Shown here: piece by piece, positions 4,932 to 11,676 of the stretch
How the letters are laid out: each line of letters begins with the position of its first letter
How positions within the stretch are numbered: the first letter of the stretch is position 1
Source: Candidatus Poribacteria bacterium
Lineage (GTDB): Bacteria; Poribacteria; DTPJ01; WJIO01
Assembly: GCA_014730235.1 (NCBI GenBank)
Contig: WJIO01000165.1
Span: forward strand, 1 to 11,767
Length of the DNA: 11,767 nt
Direction of reading: 5' to 3'
Notes under the pieces: generated by a model
The model's input: only the letters and a program-made list of their open reading frames with translations
What the model was told of the DNA's origin: nothing
Databases searched by the model: none
Translations under genes and position numbers: made by a program

Positions 4932-5744
4932 ATGAGGTATTTGCTAATTTCTGTTTTTATTATTCTTATTGTCTCAGGTTTGGCATTTTCAGAGGATTTT
5001 AATGTGTTGGTTATTTTAGGAGACCAGAGTGCCCAGGCTGAAGCCGCGGTAGTTGAATCTTTTGACACTGTTGAGGGTAATAACTTTAACTTTACCGAAC
5101 TCAATATAGCCACAGGCGGCACCCGTCCTATAGCAGGTGGAGTTATACCCGCAGAAGAAGAAATTAACTGGTCTGAATATCAGATGATCTGGTTTGCATG
5201 GAATGGGCCAGGCCATGATGGTGATTACTTCATGGAAGGTACTGAGGAAGACCTGGTTAGTTTTGTGGAAAATGGTGGCGTTATATATTTTTCCGCTTTT
5301 GACGACAACTACCGGGATCCCGAAGGTAATCAGATAGGAGGCTGGTTGCCTATTGATGAATTTCCATGTGGAGTTGATAATACAGGTGATGCTAATGCTG
5401 AAATAACTCCCGAAGGCGAAGCTACTGTCCTTTTTTCAGTACCAAATAAAATTGACGATGCTGATCTCTCAGCGTTAGTATTGGATGATAATCTTGCCCC
5501 GGCTGCCGATGAATATGTAGTTCTGGCCACGCGCACTGATAACAATCAACCGGCGGCTGTTATGCTTCCCTATGGGAAAGGTGCTTATGTGCATGTTTGT
5601 ATTGATGCTCGTTCAACTTTCCCTGCGGCTACTGACCTTGTGGAAAACCTGCTAAACTACATGGCAAATCTAACAGTTCCTATGGCTGTTGAACCTAACA
5701 TGAAACTTTATACTATATGGGGTAATATAAAATCTATTCGTTAA
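4932..5744 (+). CDS. Secreted protein with glutamine-amidotransferase-like (ThuA/DUF4350-type) fold, paralog 1
   Basis: The protein has 270 residues from ATG at 4932, which lies 8 bases after AGGAGG (4918-4923); TTG at 4929 is a less likely start. Residues 1-20 are a signal peptide (MRYLLISVFIILIVSGLAFS). The mature part begins with a strand, FNVLVILGD. It continues with EYQMIWFAWNGPGHDGDYF, the segment EEDLVSFVENGGVIYFSAFDDN, then GGWLPI, and VCIDARSTFP near the end. This order fits the class I amidotransferase-like fold used by ThuA-like and DUF4350-like proteins. The nucleophile elbow position after the GG strand has no cysteine, so amidotransferase chemistry is unlikely and a binding role is more probable. 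The C-terminus, AVEPNMKLYTIWGNIKSIR, is shared with both downstream secreted proteins. The next gene is a paralog with over half of residues identical. Function unknown. Confidence 0.7.
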   Translation: MRYLLISVFIILIVSGLAFSEDFNVLVILGDQSAQAEAAVVESFDTVEGNNFNFTELNIATGGTRPIAGGVIPAEEEINWSEYQMIWFAWNGPGHDGDYFMEGTEEDLVSFVENGGVIYFSAFDDNYRDPEGNQIGGWLPIDEFPCGVDNTGDANAEITPEGEATVLFSVPNKIDDADLSALVLDDNLAPAADEYVVLATRTDNNQPAAVMLPYGKGAYVHVCIDARSTFPAATDLVENLLNYMANLTVPMAVEPNMKLYTIWGNIKSIR

Positions 5745-5778
5745 TTTATTATATTTTGGAATTGTATTTTATATTTTG

Positions 5779-5789
5779 AAGGAGGTGAT
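5779..5789 (+). other. Orphan perfect Shine-Dalgarno sequence
   Basis: AAGGAGGTGAT is an 11-base match to the anti-Shine-Dalgarno sequence of 16S rRNA, but no plausible reading frame follows. The only close start, GTG at 5784, meets TAA after two further codons. The true start of the next gene has its own AGGAGG at 5853-5858. It may be a relic of an earlier gene start or a ribosome-binding leader element. Confidence 0.4.
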
Positions 5790-5866
5790 AAAGTAAGCAT
5801 CTACTTGGGAGATTGTAGAAATCGCTTTTTTTAACCAATTTCAAATTGTTTCAGGAGGTAAATTTC

Positions 5867-6685
5867 ATGAGGAAACTGATTTTTTCTTTTACAGTATGTT
5901 TGATTACTTTGTTTGTTGTCAGTGTTAGTATGGCTGCTAATCTAAATGTTTTAATCGTACTTGGTGACAGCAGTGCAGTTGCAGAAGCTGATGTAGTGGA
6001 ATCTTATGCTGAAATCGGTGGCGATACTTTCACATTTGAGCGCCTTAATGTAGCTGCCGGTGGAACTCGTCCAATAGAGGGTGCGCTGGTTATGGCTGAC
6101 GAAATTAGCAACGGCAGTCTGGATTTAAATGATTATGATATAATGTGGCTGACATGGAATGCACCAGGTCATGATGGTGACTATTTCTTTGCCGGTGCTG
6201 AAGAGGCTATATTAAGCTTTGTCGAGGGCGGCGGAATGGTATATATTGCCGCATTTGATGATAACTTTACAGATGCTGATGGTAACCAGATAGGCGGATG
6301 GATGCCTATTGCCGATCATCCTGCGACAGTATCAAACACCGGTGATTCTGAATTGACTGTTACACCTGAAGGTGAAGCTACAGGTATATTTGATGGCGTT
6401 GATACCAGCGGATTGGTACTGGACGATAACTATGCCAATACCGACGATGCTTATGCTATCCTTGCTATCAGAGACGACAACGGCGAACCTGCTGCCGTTA
6501 TGCTTCCCTATGGTAATGGGTTATATATCGAAGTATGTCTTGATGCTCGTTCCACTTTCCCAGCCGCAGAACCACTGGTTGGTAATGTATTGAGCTATAT
6601 GGCATCCCTGGCTGCTGAATCACCCACTGCTGTAGAACCTGAACATAAGTTGTCAATCACATGGGGTGATATAAAAGCTTACTAA
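5867..6685 (+). CDS. Secreted protein with glutamine-amidotransferase-like (ThuA/DUF4350-type) fold, paralog 2
   Basis: The protein has 272 residues from ATG at 5867, which lies 8 bases after AGGAGG (5853-5858). A TTG at 5846 would only add residues before the signal peptide. Residues 1-23 (MRKLIFSFTVCLITLFVVSVSMA) are the signal peptide. The mature protein repeats the layout of its upstream neighbour: LNVLIVLGD, AAGGTRPIEG, YDIMWLTWNAPGHDGDYFF, ILSFVEGGGMVYIAAFDDN, GNQIGGWMPI, TPEGEAT, LVLDDNYA, AAVMLPYGNG and VCLDARSTFP. As in paralog 1, the elbow lacks a nucleophilic cysteine. The C-terminus, TAVEPEHKLSITWGDIKAY, aligns with that of paralog 1. The strictly kept PGHDGDYF, FDDN and DARSTFP blocks mark likely functional surfaces. 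The acidic, Asp-rich composition could indicate metal binding, but this is inference. Tandem duplication is clear; the function is not. Confidence 0.7.
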   Translation: MRKLIFSFTVCLITLFVVSVSMAANLNVLIVLGDSSAVAEADVVESYAEIGGDTFTFERLNVAAGGTRPIEGALVMADEISNGSLDLNDYDIMWLTWNAPGHDGDYFFAGAEEAILSFVEGGGMVYIAAFDDNFTDADGNQIGGWMPIADHPATVSNTGDSELTVTPEGEATGIFDGVDTSGLVLDDNYANTDDAYAILAIRDDNGEPAAVMLPYGNGLYIEVCLDARSTFPAAEPLVGNVLSYMASLAAESPTAVEPEHKLSITWGDIKAY

Positions 6686-6699
6686 AAACAATAAATGAG

Positions 6700-6732
6700 T
6701 TTGCAGGTCGGTTTTTGCATCCGACCTGCAAA
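6700..6732 (+). terminator. Perfect 12-bp stem-loop between cluster genes (attenuator or mRNA end)
   Basis: TTTGCAGGTCGG (6700-6711) pairs perfectly with CCGACCTGCAAA (6721-6732) around a 9-base loop, TTTTTGCAT. It begins 14 bases after the stop of paralog 2 and lies 55 bases before the next gene start. There is no T run after the stem on the plus strand, so it may protect or process the transcript, or end it only partly. Confidence 0.45.
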
Positions 6733-6787
6733 AATTCAAGCTTTTACTGAAATTATTGAAGTAATCAAGAAAAAAGAAGGTGATTTT

Positions 6788-7400
6788 ATGTATAAAAGAT
6801 ATGTGATTTATTTTTCTATAATATGCTTCACCTTTCTGTTTCTTTGTCCTAAAAGCTTTTCTGCAGAAACAATAACTGTAGAGAACATTGAAGTTGCCAG
6901 CGGCAGAGCCTATGTTGTTCCAGAAGCAGGTATTGATGTTGGAACAAAGTATTATATTGATCGTGACTATGTTGTTAATCTTCTGCCCGAAGAGCTTATA
7001 GGTGCAACCTTTATTATGACTGGAAATGACGACAAGAATTCAGTTGGTGAGGATTTTCTTACATTTACCGTTGATATTCCTACCAAAGTCTGGTTAGCTC
7101 GCGATAGTCGGGGTGATGAAGGCAAAGCAGGTCAGATACCCGAATGGCTTTCAGAAGATATGGGATGGGAAAGACACGAAGATTTAAAGATCGAAGTAAC
7201 TGATGGAAATATGGGCTTTTTTATCCTGTATAGTAAAGATTTTGAAAAGGGTGATATAGTTCTTGGCGGCAATGCTGACCCCACCATCAAACGGTCAGGG
7301 GAGCCAATATCTTGTTATCCTTACACCCAGTGAACTACTGAAAGCTGTTGAATATACAGGAAAAGCAGCTACGACCTGGGCTGAATTAAGGTCTAAATAA
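6788..7400 (+). pseudogene. Secreted domain protein of unknown function, frameshifted near its C-terminus
   Basis: I choose ATG at 6788, after AAGGTG at 6777-6782, over the upstream in-frame ATG at 6695, which would start inside the stem-loop and before the signal peptide. Residues 1-25 are a signal peptide (ending KSFSAE). The mature region contains KYYIDRDYVVNLLPEEL, ATFIMTGNDDKNS, FLTFTVDIPTKVWLARDSR, QIPEWLS, FFILYSKDFEKGDIVLGGNAD. As I recall, this domain recurs in secreted proteins of environmental bacteria, often as a C-terminal module; I know of no function. The frame as read stops at 7331-7333. Dropping one C from the CCCC at 7279-7282 gives PPSNGQGSQYLVILTPSEL and ends in AVEYTGKAATTWAELRSK at 7400, matching the motif on the two upstream proteins. 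So the gene is either recently frameshifted or affected by a homopolymer base-call error. Confidence 0.7.
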
Positions 7401-8420: not shown

Positions 8421-10133
8421 TTAATGATCTGAAGTTGCTCTGAAGGCTTCTTCCAATGAAGTAATGCCATCAATAACCTTATCAAGGGCTGCTTGTCTCA
8501 GGGTTCTCATACCATTTCTTATCGCGACTTGCTGGATTGTTTTCACATCTTTAAGGGATGAAGTAAGTTCCCGGATTTCATCATCCATAAACATAACTTC
8601 ATAGACTCCTGTTCTTCCTTTATATCCTTTATCATCGCAAATACTGCATCCATTTTTTTCATAAAAAGTATAATCTTTTTTTGGAAGCTTCAGTCTATCC
8701 AAAACTTCCCGGGAAGGTTTATAAGGTTTTTTACAGTTAGGACAAAGCTTTCTCACCAGACGCTGGGCTATGACGCAGGTAACGGATGCAGATATAAGAA
8801 ATGGCTGGACATCAAGGTCAAGGAGTCTTGATATTGCGCTGGGTGCGTTATTGGTGTGCAAAGTGCTAAAGACTAAATGCCCTGTAAGGGCAGCTTCTAC
8901 AGCCAGTTCTGCTGTTTCAAAATCTCGAATTTCTCCCACCATTATTATGTCCGGATCCTGACGCAGTATAGATCTTAAAACCGAAGGAAAAGTACGACCT
9001 GCTTTGTGGTTAATTTCAACCTGATTAAGGCCTGATATCAGGTATTCTACAGGGTCTTCTATGGTGATTATGTTTACATCGGTTTTATTTATGCGGTTCA
9101 GGGATGCGTAAAGGGTTGATGTTTTACCGCTTCCTGTAGGACCTGTAACCAGTATCATACCATAGGGACTTTCTATGCTCTCTATGTATTTATCCTGTAC
9201 GTCTTTTGGCATACCCAGTTGTTCAAGTCCCAGAGATGTGGTTGATTCGTCGGCAATACGCATGACGATTTTTTCGCCAAAAGCTGTGGGCAGAGATGAT
9301 ACTCTAAGATTTACATTTCCATTATCTGTCCTTATTTTAAGCCTTCCATCCTGGGGAACACGCCTTTCAGCGATGTCCATGTTGGACATAATTTTTATAC
9401 GGGATACAACGGCTGCATGAAGTTGTTTCGGGGGAGAGTCCACTTCATGAAGTATACCGTCAACCCGAAATCTTATTCTTAGTCTATCCTGGTATACCTC
9501 AATATGCACATCGCTGGCTTCTTCATCAATGGCCTGTCTTATAATCAGGTCTACAAGACCAATAACAGGCGCATCTTCAGCAAGGCGTTCAAGACTTGCC
9601 AGGTCGCTTATCTCTGTATCTATGCTCTCATCCTGAATTGTTTGAAGTTCTTCCCCTGGTTTAACTTTCTTAAGGTATTCGCTTACTGATTCCCTGGAGG
9701 ATTTATATTTGAGCTTGATGGAATTTTCTATTTCCTCCTTGCTGCTGATCATGGGAATGACATGCAGATTAGTGCGTTTTTCAACTTCATCAATGGCATC
9801 AATATCCAGAGGGTTAGCCATTGCCACAGTGATTATATCACCATGTTGGGATACAGGGATTAATTTATGTTTGGAAACCAGGTCCATGGGTACAAGATCG
9901 ATTACTGAGTCAGGGATTTTCAGTGTGCTTACATGTATGGGAACTGTCTCAAGGGCTAAAGCACGATAGCTCAACATATTTTCAGATTCAACAAATCCAT
10001 TGTTTACCAGAATATCTTCAAGCTTTCCGCCATCCTGTTCGCGGATTTTTTGAGATTCTGCTATATCATCTTCACTTATGACTTGATCTTTTTTTAATAG
10101 ATCAATTAATGTTGTGCTAAATCCCCTGCGCAT
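8421..10133 (-). CDS. pilB: Type IV pilus / type II secretion assembly ATPase (PilB/GspE family)
   Basis: The protein has 570 residues. An N-terminal MshEN/GspE-N-type region (about 1-160, with LEDILVNNGFV and the PMDLVSKHKLIPV, VAMANPLD blocks) precedes the hexameric ATPase core. The core has Walker A GPTGSGKT (331-338), the Asp box IITIEDPVEY (355-364), Walker B IIMVGEIRD (396-404), the His box HLVFSTLHTNN (419-429), and a four-cysteine zinc site at Cys464, 467, 496 and 499. All key residues are present, so the enzyme should be active in powering pilus extension or pseudopilus assembly at the inner membrane. Length and N-terminal domain favour PilB over GspE, but no pilC, pilT or gsp gene lies in the window to settle it. 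The start is ATG 10133, with AGGA 11 bases upstream (long spacing). A tight palindromic repeat region lies just upstream. Confidence 0.93.
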   Translation of the reverse strand: MRRGFSTTLIDLLKKDQVISEDDIAESQKIREQDGGKLEDILVNNGFVESENMLSYRALALETVPIHVSTLKIPDSVIDLVPMDLVSKHKLIPVSQHGDIITVAMANPLDIDAIDEVEKRTNLHVIPMISSKEEIENSIKLKYKSSRESVSEYLKKVKPGEELQTIQDESIDTEISDLASLERLAEDAPVIGLVDLIIRQAIDEEASDVHIEVYQDRLRIRFRVDGILHEVDSPPKQLHAAVVSRIKIMSNMDIAERRVPQDGRLKIRTDNGNVNLRVSSLPTAFGEKIVMRIADESTTSLGLEQLGMPKDVQDKYIESIESPYGMILVTGPTGSGKTSTLYASLNRINKTDVNIITIEDPVEYLISGLNQVEINHKAGRTFPSVLRSILRQDPDIIMVGEIRDFETAELAVEAALTGHLVFSTLHTNNAPSAISRLLDLDVQPFLISASVTCVIAQRLVRKLCPNCKKPYKPSREVLDRLKLPKKDYTFYEKNGCSICDDKGYKGRTGVYEVMFMDDEIRELTSSLKDVKTIQQVAIRNGMRTLRQAALDKVIDGITSLEEAFRATSDH

Positions 10134-10518: not shown

Positions 10519-11676
10519 TTAACCCATAGAGGGTGAAGATATAGAACGTTTCCATGTTTCCTGTATATATATCCTGCCTCCCCGGGTTGATAGATTTATA
10601 GACGCTCCACCTTCTTTTAATATACCATGAAGTTTGTTTTCTGAGCGTCCCAAAAGCTTTTGCCAAGGTAAAGCAACTGGTGCAATCTGACCCCCATTGG
10701 TTGCTTCCGCTATTAATTCTCCTGAGAGATCGCCATCCAGAAGCACGTTTATATCTCCAATTTCATTCATACATATAAAGTTACCGTTGGATACGGATGC
10801 AAGGTTTAGCCATATATCGCCTTCTTTGGATGATATATTAATGTTATCGGAATTTATATCCCTTATATCGCAGTTACCTTTATTGGCACTTATATCTATT
10901 GATCCATCAATACCAATAAGACGTGTGTCTCCACCATTCACTCTTATATTCAGTTCACCTTTTATTTGTTCGCATCCCAGGTCACCACTCTGGCAGTAAA
11001 TGTCCATATCAGCGGATACTTTGCTTAACCACATATCGCCCGGTTCAACTCTGGCTTTCATTCGGGATATGCCCTCTGGAACCCAGATCTGCATTTGACC
11101 TGTAGAACTAGCCACTCTTATGGTATTATCATCCTGCCCTATTCTTAGATCAAAAACCGCGCCATCAATTTTGAGATTGGGCTTATCCCATCCTCTTACG
11201 AAAAGGTCTCCCTGGTATGATACTATATCCAGATTATTTCCTTCGGATACATCAATTGAATGACTTATATATATAGGATGTTCAAAATTCTGCCACATCC
11301 ACTGCCAGCTTTCATCTTCCCAGGGCCACTGCCAACCTTGGCTTTCACCTTCTACCATACCGACCATCATCTCTGGTGCCCATTCCTGTAGTCTTTCTGC
11401 TAAGATAAGCTTTCTCTCTCTTCTGGTGGGAACATTAGAGAATTCAATAGTTTTTTCGGGTTCTATTTCTTCTTCTTTTTTCTCTTCTTTCCGAATAGGT
11501 TCAGGCACTTCTTCTTCTTCTTTTTCTTCTTCTACAACCTGAATTTCAGAAATGTCCTCCTTTACAGACTGGATTTCTTCTTCATCCAATTCCTGTCCCA
11601 AGTATTTTTCCGCTTCTTCAACTGATAGTTCACCCTGTTCGATTTTCTCCAGGATTGACAATCTATCTTTTTCCAT
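10519..11676 (-). CDS. Glu-rich DUF4097-like beta-solenoid protein with SHOCT-like N-terminus
   Basis: The protein has 385 residues from ATG 11676-11674, with GGGAGGAA upstream on the minus strand. Residues 5-26 (RLSILEKIEQGELSVEEAEKYL) match the short helical SHOCT-like motif found at the start of YvlB-type proteins. Residues 31-78 are a very acidic, probably disordered linker. Residues 115-128 hold six tryptophans in 14 positions. From about residue 135 to the end, short repeats of the type 'G-D-I-x-V/I-x-x-x-x-G' (YQGDLFV, PGDMWL, SGDLGC, KEGDIWLNL, EIGDINVLL, RGGRIYIQE) indicate a right-handed beta-solenoid of the DUF4097 'putative adhesin' kind. No signal peptide or membrane segment is seen, so it is probably cytoplasmic or membrane-associated; in Firmicutes related proteins act in envelope-stress responses. 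The gene starts 21 bases after the stop of a gene with a similar C-terminal end, so the two form an operon. Confidence 0.75.
   Translation of the reverse strand: MEKDRLSILEKIEQGELSVEEAEKYLGQELDEEEIQSVKEDISEIQVVEEEKEEEEVPEPIRKEEKKEEEIEPEKTIEFSNVPTRRERKLILAERLQEWAPEMMVGMVEGESQGWQWPWEDESWQWMWQNFEHPIYISHSIDVSEGNNLDIVSYQGDLFVRGWDKPNLKIDGAVFDLRIGQDDNTIRVASSTGQMQIWVPEGISRMKARVEPGDMWLSKVSADMDIYCQSGDLGCEQIKGELNIRVNGGDTRLIGIDGSIDISANKGNCDIRDINSDNINISSKEGDIWLNLASVSNGNFICMNEIGDINVLLDGDLSGELIAEATNGGQIAPVALPWQKLLGRSENKLHGILKEGGASINLSTRGGRIYIQETWKRSISSPSMG

Follow-up and report, generated by a model that had tools for sequence, protein, structure and literature searches.

A short C-terminal tail on exported proteins of Poribacteria is probably a sorting or anchoring tag

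Poribacteria are widespread uncultured sponge symbionts together with free-living relatives. In a stretch of 11,767 nucleotides from one of their genomes (the window), a first-pass annotation had reported that three consecutive genes for secreted proteins end in the same motif, which raises the question of whether this tail serves a common handling system or belongs to the proteins' domains. The motif was found at the end of all three proteins, each time directly before a TAA stop codon, and the genes and their tails are arranged as follows.

4932..5744, + strand: tagged protein 1, 270 aa, with a signal peptide, a predicted GATase-like domain and the tag; 55% identity to protein 2.
5685..5741, + strand: tag 1, AVEPNMKLYTIWGNIKSIR, with TAA directly after it; profile E 3.1e-9.
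5867..6685, + strand: tagged protein 2, 272 aa, with a signal peptide, a predicted GATase-like domain and the tag; modelled with AF2 and compared with Foldseek.
6629..6682, + strand: tag 2, AVEPEHKLSITWGDIKAY, with TAA directly after it; profile E 2.8e-8; modelled outside the domain at pLDDT ~38.
6788..7333, + strand: body of tagged protein 3, with a signal peptide and an unknown domain, in a frame that differs from that of the tag.
7260..7400, + strand: C-terminal frame of protein 3, in another frame than the body; the frameshift lies between 7260 and 7333.
7344..7397, + strand: tag 3, AVEYTGKAATTWAELRSK, with TAA directly after it; profile E 6.0e-7.

Both window paralogues are assigned a GATase-like fold, and this is our reading of weak structural matches: the AlphaFold model of protein 2 has a moderate pLDDT of 70, and the best matches that Foldseek gave for it in the PDB, which include class I glutaminase-like domains and parts of GH42 enzymes, reach TM values of only ~0.4–0.5. 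The third protein acquires its tag only once its frame is restored, as the annotation had proposed, and this restoration is borne out by L244, a full-length homologue from this genome with 29–30% identity to protein 3 over ~100 aa, in which signal peptide, domain and tag all lie in one frame. The third window gene is therefore frameshifted in this assembly, through an assembly error or a mutation. Further tags of the source genome lie in very short open reading frames (L029, L202, L214 and L231) and one (L203) has a stop codon within the tag, which points either to more than the occasional frameshifted or decayed copy or to indels in the assembly. The window also encodes a 560-aa exported protein with no Pfam match (309–1991, +), a GspE/PilB-type ATPase with an MshEN domain (8421–10133, −), which adjoins the tagged cluster probably by chance, and a DUF4097 protein with an acidic N-terminal part (10519–11676, −).

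The consensus first proposed for the tail, AVE-x3-K-x4-W followed by a few further residues, gave 29 matches as an exact DNA pattern in the 5.53-Mb source genome, against none for the reversed pattern. All but two of these (27/29) are C-terminal; the remaining two are chance matches, one in a 68-aa junk open reading frame and one near the start of another gene, presumably aldehyde-dehydrogenase-like. A profile (A1) built from the 27 C-terminal tails returned 140 matches in the genome, and 121 of the 123 that were read in open reading frames end 0–9 residues before the stop, including matches at E values near 1–2; the motif is thus neither confined to the three window genes nor buried inside domains. 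The core consensus is V-x4-K-L-x3-W-[GAS]-x-[IVL]-K in a tail of 15–18 residues, followed by at most a few unconserved residues. With Trp as the anchor of the count (100%), both Lys are conserved at 95%, Val at 91%, Ala at 57% and Glu at 42%, so the K/W core of the original consensus stands and its A-V-E part is less strict. A relaxed protein pattern run over all fetched DNA gave 288 forward matches and none in reverse. After removal of duplicates and of four Bacteroidota loci discussed below, 262 of 263 matches lie within 10 residues of the stop, a count that is biased towards the tag because the loci were fetched by it. A chance origin of the tag is excluded. A single poribacterial match (L052) has a longer extension, of 18 aa, after the tag.

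A strict DNA pattern, with counts resting on searches together with fetched stretches, was found in all 84 Poribacteria genomes, which represent 21 of 21 genera, at 6–71 copies each; the reversed pattern in the same 84 genomes gave nothing except one match in one genome. With the profile, each of 23 genomes yielded 27–148 matches at E ≤ 0.1 (up to 150 candidates scored per genome). A scan of 84,980 species returned at least 112 loci, comprising 108 from Poribacteria and four from Bacteroidota among the matches listed. Eighty of these loci were listed by name, 76 as Candidatus or uncultured Poribacteria and four as Bacteroidota, and the remaining 32, which were fetched, all carry a terminal tag. 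Outside the four Bacteroidota, all 118 matches listed are terminal and begin 16–33 aa before the stop. The Bacteroidota matches were rejected as chance: they are internal, ~296–299 aa from the C-terminus, and belong to one enzyme family, which we take to be ornithine-aminotransferase-like. The annotation's mention of similar endings in Poribacteria-like secreted proteins is in this way confirmed for every genome of the phylum sampled, the only others among the matches listed being these four internal ones. No description of the tag was found in Pfam, NCBIfam or the open-access journal papers searched.

Two checks that had been suggested, for enrichment in signal-peptide proteins and for fusion to many unrelated domains, were run and gave clear answers. 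By a simple home-made rule, a signal-peptide-like start was called in 95 of 106 complete tagged proteins and in 25 of 88 neighbouring open reading frames (Fisher p = 3e-19), and most tagged frames without a call look like start-codon problems. The proteins are small (median 262 aa, quartiles 247–274) and as a rule neither lipoproteins nor tail-anchored, since a lipobox-like site was found in 3/106 and a borderline hydrophobic 19-mer within the last 60 aa in 1/106. Among 105 tagged proteins, Pfam placed Laminin_G_3 (LamG) in 56, and further bodies include 3-keto-disaccharide hydrolase, F5/8 type C (discoidin), CBM9, galectin-like, cohesin, esterase, PD40 propeller, Sad1/UNC and other domains, to which the GATase-like domains of the window may be added. 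Across all sampled Poribacteria the tail occurs on about 30 to 150 small proteins per genome, whose bodies are mostly carbohydrate-binding.

As more than half of the tagged proteins are LamG relatives, part of the count reflects paralogy, and the excess of tandem pairs of tagged genes within 1.5 kb (28 seen, ~5 expected) fits gene duplication. These two observations would also suit a tail that is the hitch-hiking remnant of one duplicated LamG family and has no common role. That explanation is largely refuted, and we regard it as very improbable, because the tail is the best-conserved part of proteins whose bodies diverge down to 21–31% identity, and it is attached to unrelated folds and almost never internal. 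Eight proteins were aligned, all the others sharing 21–55% identity with window protein 2; of the eight columns that are invariant, seven fall in the tag, and when 105 tagged proteins were aligned the sole invariant column was the Trp of the tag. In AlphaFold models the tail lies outside the folded domain: in a LamG-type protein the body is modelled at pLDDT ~97 and the tail at ~53, as a short helix at the C-terminus that follows a loose linker, and the tail of window protein 2, at pLDDT ~38, is also drawn as a helix. A hydrophobic-moment test on the tag found no excess at 100 degrees, the helical period, and an excess at 160 degrees; the helical form of the tail is thus possible rather than secure.

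The tail has the properties generally expected of a C-terminal sorting signal, in that it lies at the extreme C-terminus, on signal-peptide proteins, on unrelated domains and in many copies per genome. This anatomy, together with the distribution, gives good support to the reading as a C-terminal handling tag. The same tail is present whatever the body, and it therefore looks like an undescribed address or cell-surface attachment tag. The earlier argument for a common handling system rather than a domain function gains support from the terminal position, the signal peptides and the unrelated bodies, from which the role itself is inferred. Overall, we consider it probable that exported proteins are sorted or anchored by means of this C-terminal tail, at a step after Sec.

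Known C-terminal systems offer several points of comparison. PEP-CTERM/exosortase resembles the tag in using a short C-terminal motif common to otherwise unrelated exported proteins, and LPXTG/sortase in placing a C-terminal sorting motif on exported proteins. Neither exosortase nor sortase (PF04203) was found in any of 29 genomes in searches to which control genomes did respond, and the C-terminal transmembrane helix followed by basic residues that characterizes PEP-CTERM is absent, with only one borderline segment among 106 proteins. The tag was accordingly rejected both as PEP-CTERM (no transmembrane helix, exosortase 0/29) and as LPXTG (no LPXTG, no transmembrane helix, sortase 0/29). The analogy with PEP-CTERM that had been drawn at the outset survives only in the sense of 'a C-terminal address'; the transmembrane segment and the exosortase or sortase that it would entail are missing. 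A co-occurring processing enzyme had also been anticipated, and none emerged, either from the exosortase and sortase searches or among the neighbours of ~130 tagged loci, where no partner was seen either. The families that recur around these loci (named by eye as PhyH-like, Gfo/Idh-like, TPR, sulfatase-like and WD40) look generally abundant.

Dockerins are like the tag in being C-terminal docking units on carbohydrate-active proteins. They are ~60-aa calcium-binding domains, whereas the tag is a peptide. A cohesin domain (E 2e-26) occurs on one tagged protein of the source genome (alignment A2), an observation that would be relevant if the tag were a docking unit.

The C-terminal domains (CTDs) of type IX secretion share more with the tag: an extreme C-terminal position, carriers with signal peptides, many different bodies, no transmembrane helix and tens of copies per genome. 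Kamke et al. 2014 (PMC3909097) had reported such CTDs in Poribacteria without detecting the Por structural genes. In our searches, TIGR04183 CTDs numbered 22–79 in each of 39 genomes, PorV-family proteins 13–25 and C25 peptidases 1–5 in each of 29 genomes, and a SprA_N match was found in 75 of 81 genomes (29 of them over Pfam's cut-off), mostly in a single-copy open reading frame of ~2,200 aa. For three of these proteins, the Sov/SprA model TIGR04189 gave matches in five stretches (E 9e-54, 5e-51 and 6e-42), at scores of 143–182 bits that lie below the curated cut-off of 200. A phmmer search of the SprA-like proteins against the PDB gave no SprA match, though the profile search did match. Judged by sequence matches, the three parts looked for as marks of a type IX organism are all represented, namely a Sov/SprA translocon, a PorV-type shuttle and a C25-type peptidase, and the SprA-like, PorV-family, C25 and CTD matches make it very probable that Poribacteria have a diverged type IX system. 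Sov/SprA-like copies were located at L153:6644-13537 (source genome, C368), L154, L155, L156, L157 and L158, the source copy having an N-terminal LysM domain. The PorV family is strongly expanded phylum-wide, and one member adjoins a CTD gene in G001 (C452). Secretins were found in 29/29 genomes, evidence of a type II or type IV pilus system.

The tag itself is distinct from the type IX signal. Type IX CTDs are folded beta-domains of 40–100 aa with motifs B, D and E, in contrast to a tag of ~15–18 aa, predicted to be a loose helix or coil, that is unrelated in sequence and carried by a separate set of smaller proteins. The poribacterial CTDs are long (YPNPFNPETWIPYQL...SGVYFY...KMxIxK) and sit on other, larger proteins. 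Membership of the tag in the type IX CTD family was rejected: an NCBIfam search of the window proteins gave no match to TIGR04183, motifs B, D (GxY) and E are lacking, and none of the 53 TIGR04183 CTDs of the source genome coincides with a tag. Nor are the two co-located, as only 3 of the 53 CTD genes lie near a tag against ~7 expected. The type IX analogy raised in the first-pass annotation is therefore closer than that with PEP-CTERM, because the phylum has type IX parts, but it does not extend to the tag being a type IX CTD.

One specific form of the sorting-tag explanation would nonetheless have the tag mark clients of the poribacterial type IX system: a very short signal, it would be read by the SprA-like translocon or a PorV-like protein in parallel with the long CTDs. 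The machinery for this appears to be at hand, given CTDs, PorV-family proteins and C25 peptidases in all 29–39 genomes sampled, SprA_N in 75/81 and the TIGR04189 matches of three SprA-like proteins (E 6e-42 to 9e-54), and short signals have precedents. Translocation of HBP35 in P. gingivalis depends on the last 22 residues of its CTD (PMC3120885), and in Prevotella intermedia the short CTDs of 40–51 aa were modelled as binding PorV in the way that long ones do (PMC11969387). We nevertheless regard this form as rather unlikely, since the tag, a low-confidence loose helix, has neither the GxY motif D nor the beta-strands of type A CTDs, the CTD proteins are larger and, as counted above, neither coincide nor cluster with the tags, Bacteroidota, the best-known type IX hosts, do not share the tag among the matches listed, and the best TIGR04189 score falls just under the curated cut-off (182 against 200).

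The other specific form takes the tag for a peptide-sized analogue of a dockerin, which would anchor proteins to a dedicated surface scaffold or receptor peculiar to Poribacteria and work independently of type IX. It would account for the separation of tag and CTD on different protein sets, for the restriction of the tag to one phylum among the matches listed, for the mostly carbohydrate-binding bodies and for a tail that is free and short; as no scaffold protein was found, we propose it only tentatively. A third possibility is that the tag acts within the periplasm, as a signal for retention, for a chaperone or for recognition by a protease, and not in outward sorting. Periplasmic proteases or chaperones could recognize a free C-terminal end that bears hydrophobic residues, but with ~100 lectin-like carriers per genome, whose glycan-binding domains are most readily understood as working outside the cell, such a role seems improbable.

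Under the preferred reading, as a sorting or anchoring tag, Sec would export the tagged protein and the domain would fold while the tail stays free. The free tail, in which V, K, L, W, I and K are conserved and which may form a short helix, would then bind one shared receptor, for which the periplasm, the outer membrane and the cell surface are candidate sites. This receptor would pass the protein outward or hold it on the surface, and the outcome would be a cell coat of glycan-binding proteins. It is conceivable, although we stop short of favouring it, that Poribacteria have here a wholly separate, undescribed system for sorting proteins or anchoring them to the surface, which has a receptor of its own, operates beside type IX secretion and covers the cell with dozens to more than 100 small glycan-binding proteins.

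The type IX parts found here call for revision of claims that this system is limited to Bacteroidota, or that Poribacteria lack the Por structural genes; a Sov/SprA-like translocon in nearly all Poribacteria contradicts the 2014 statement on the Por structural genes. If the sorting-tag reading is true, sequence would be enough to define, through the tag, a large part of the proteome that Poribacteria secrete or carry on their surface, and the tag would provide an entry point towards its receptor.
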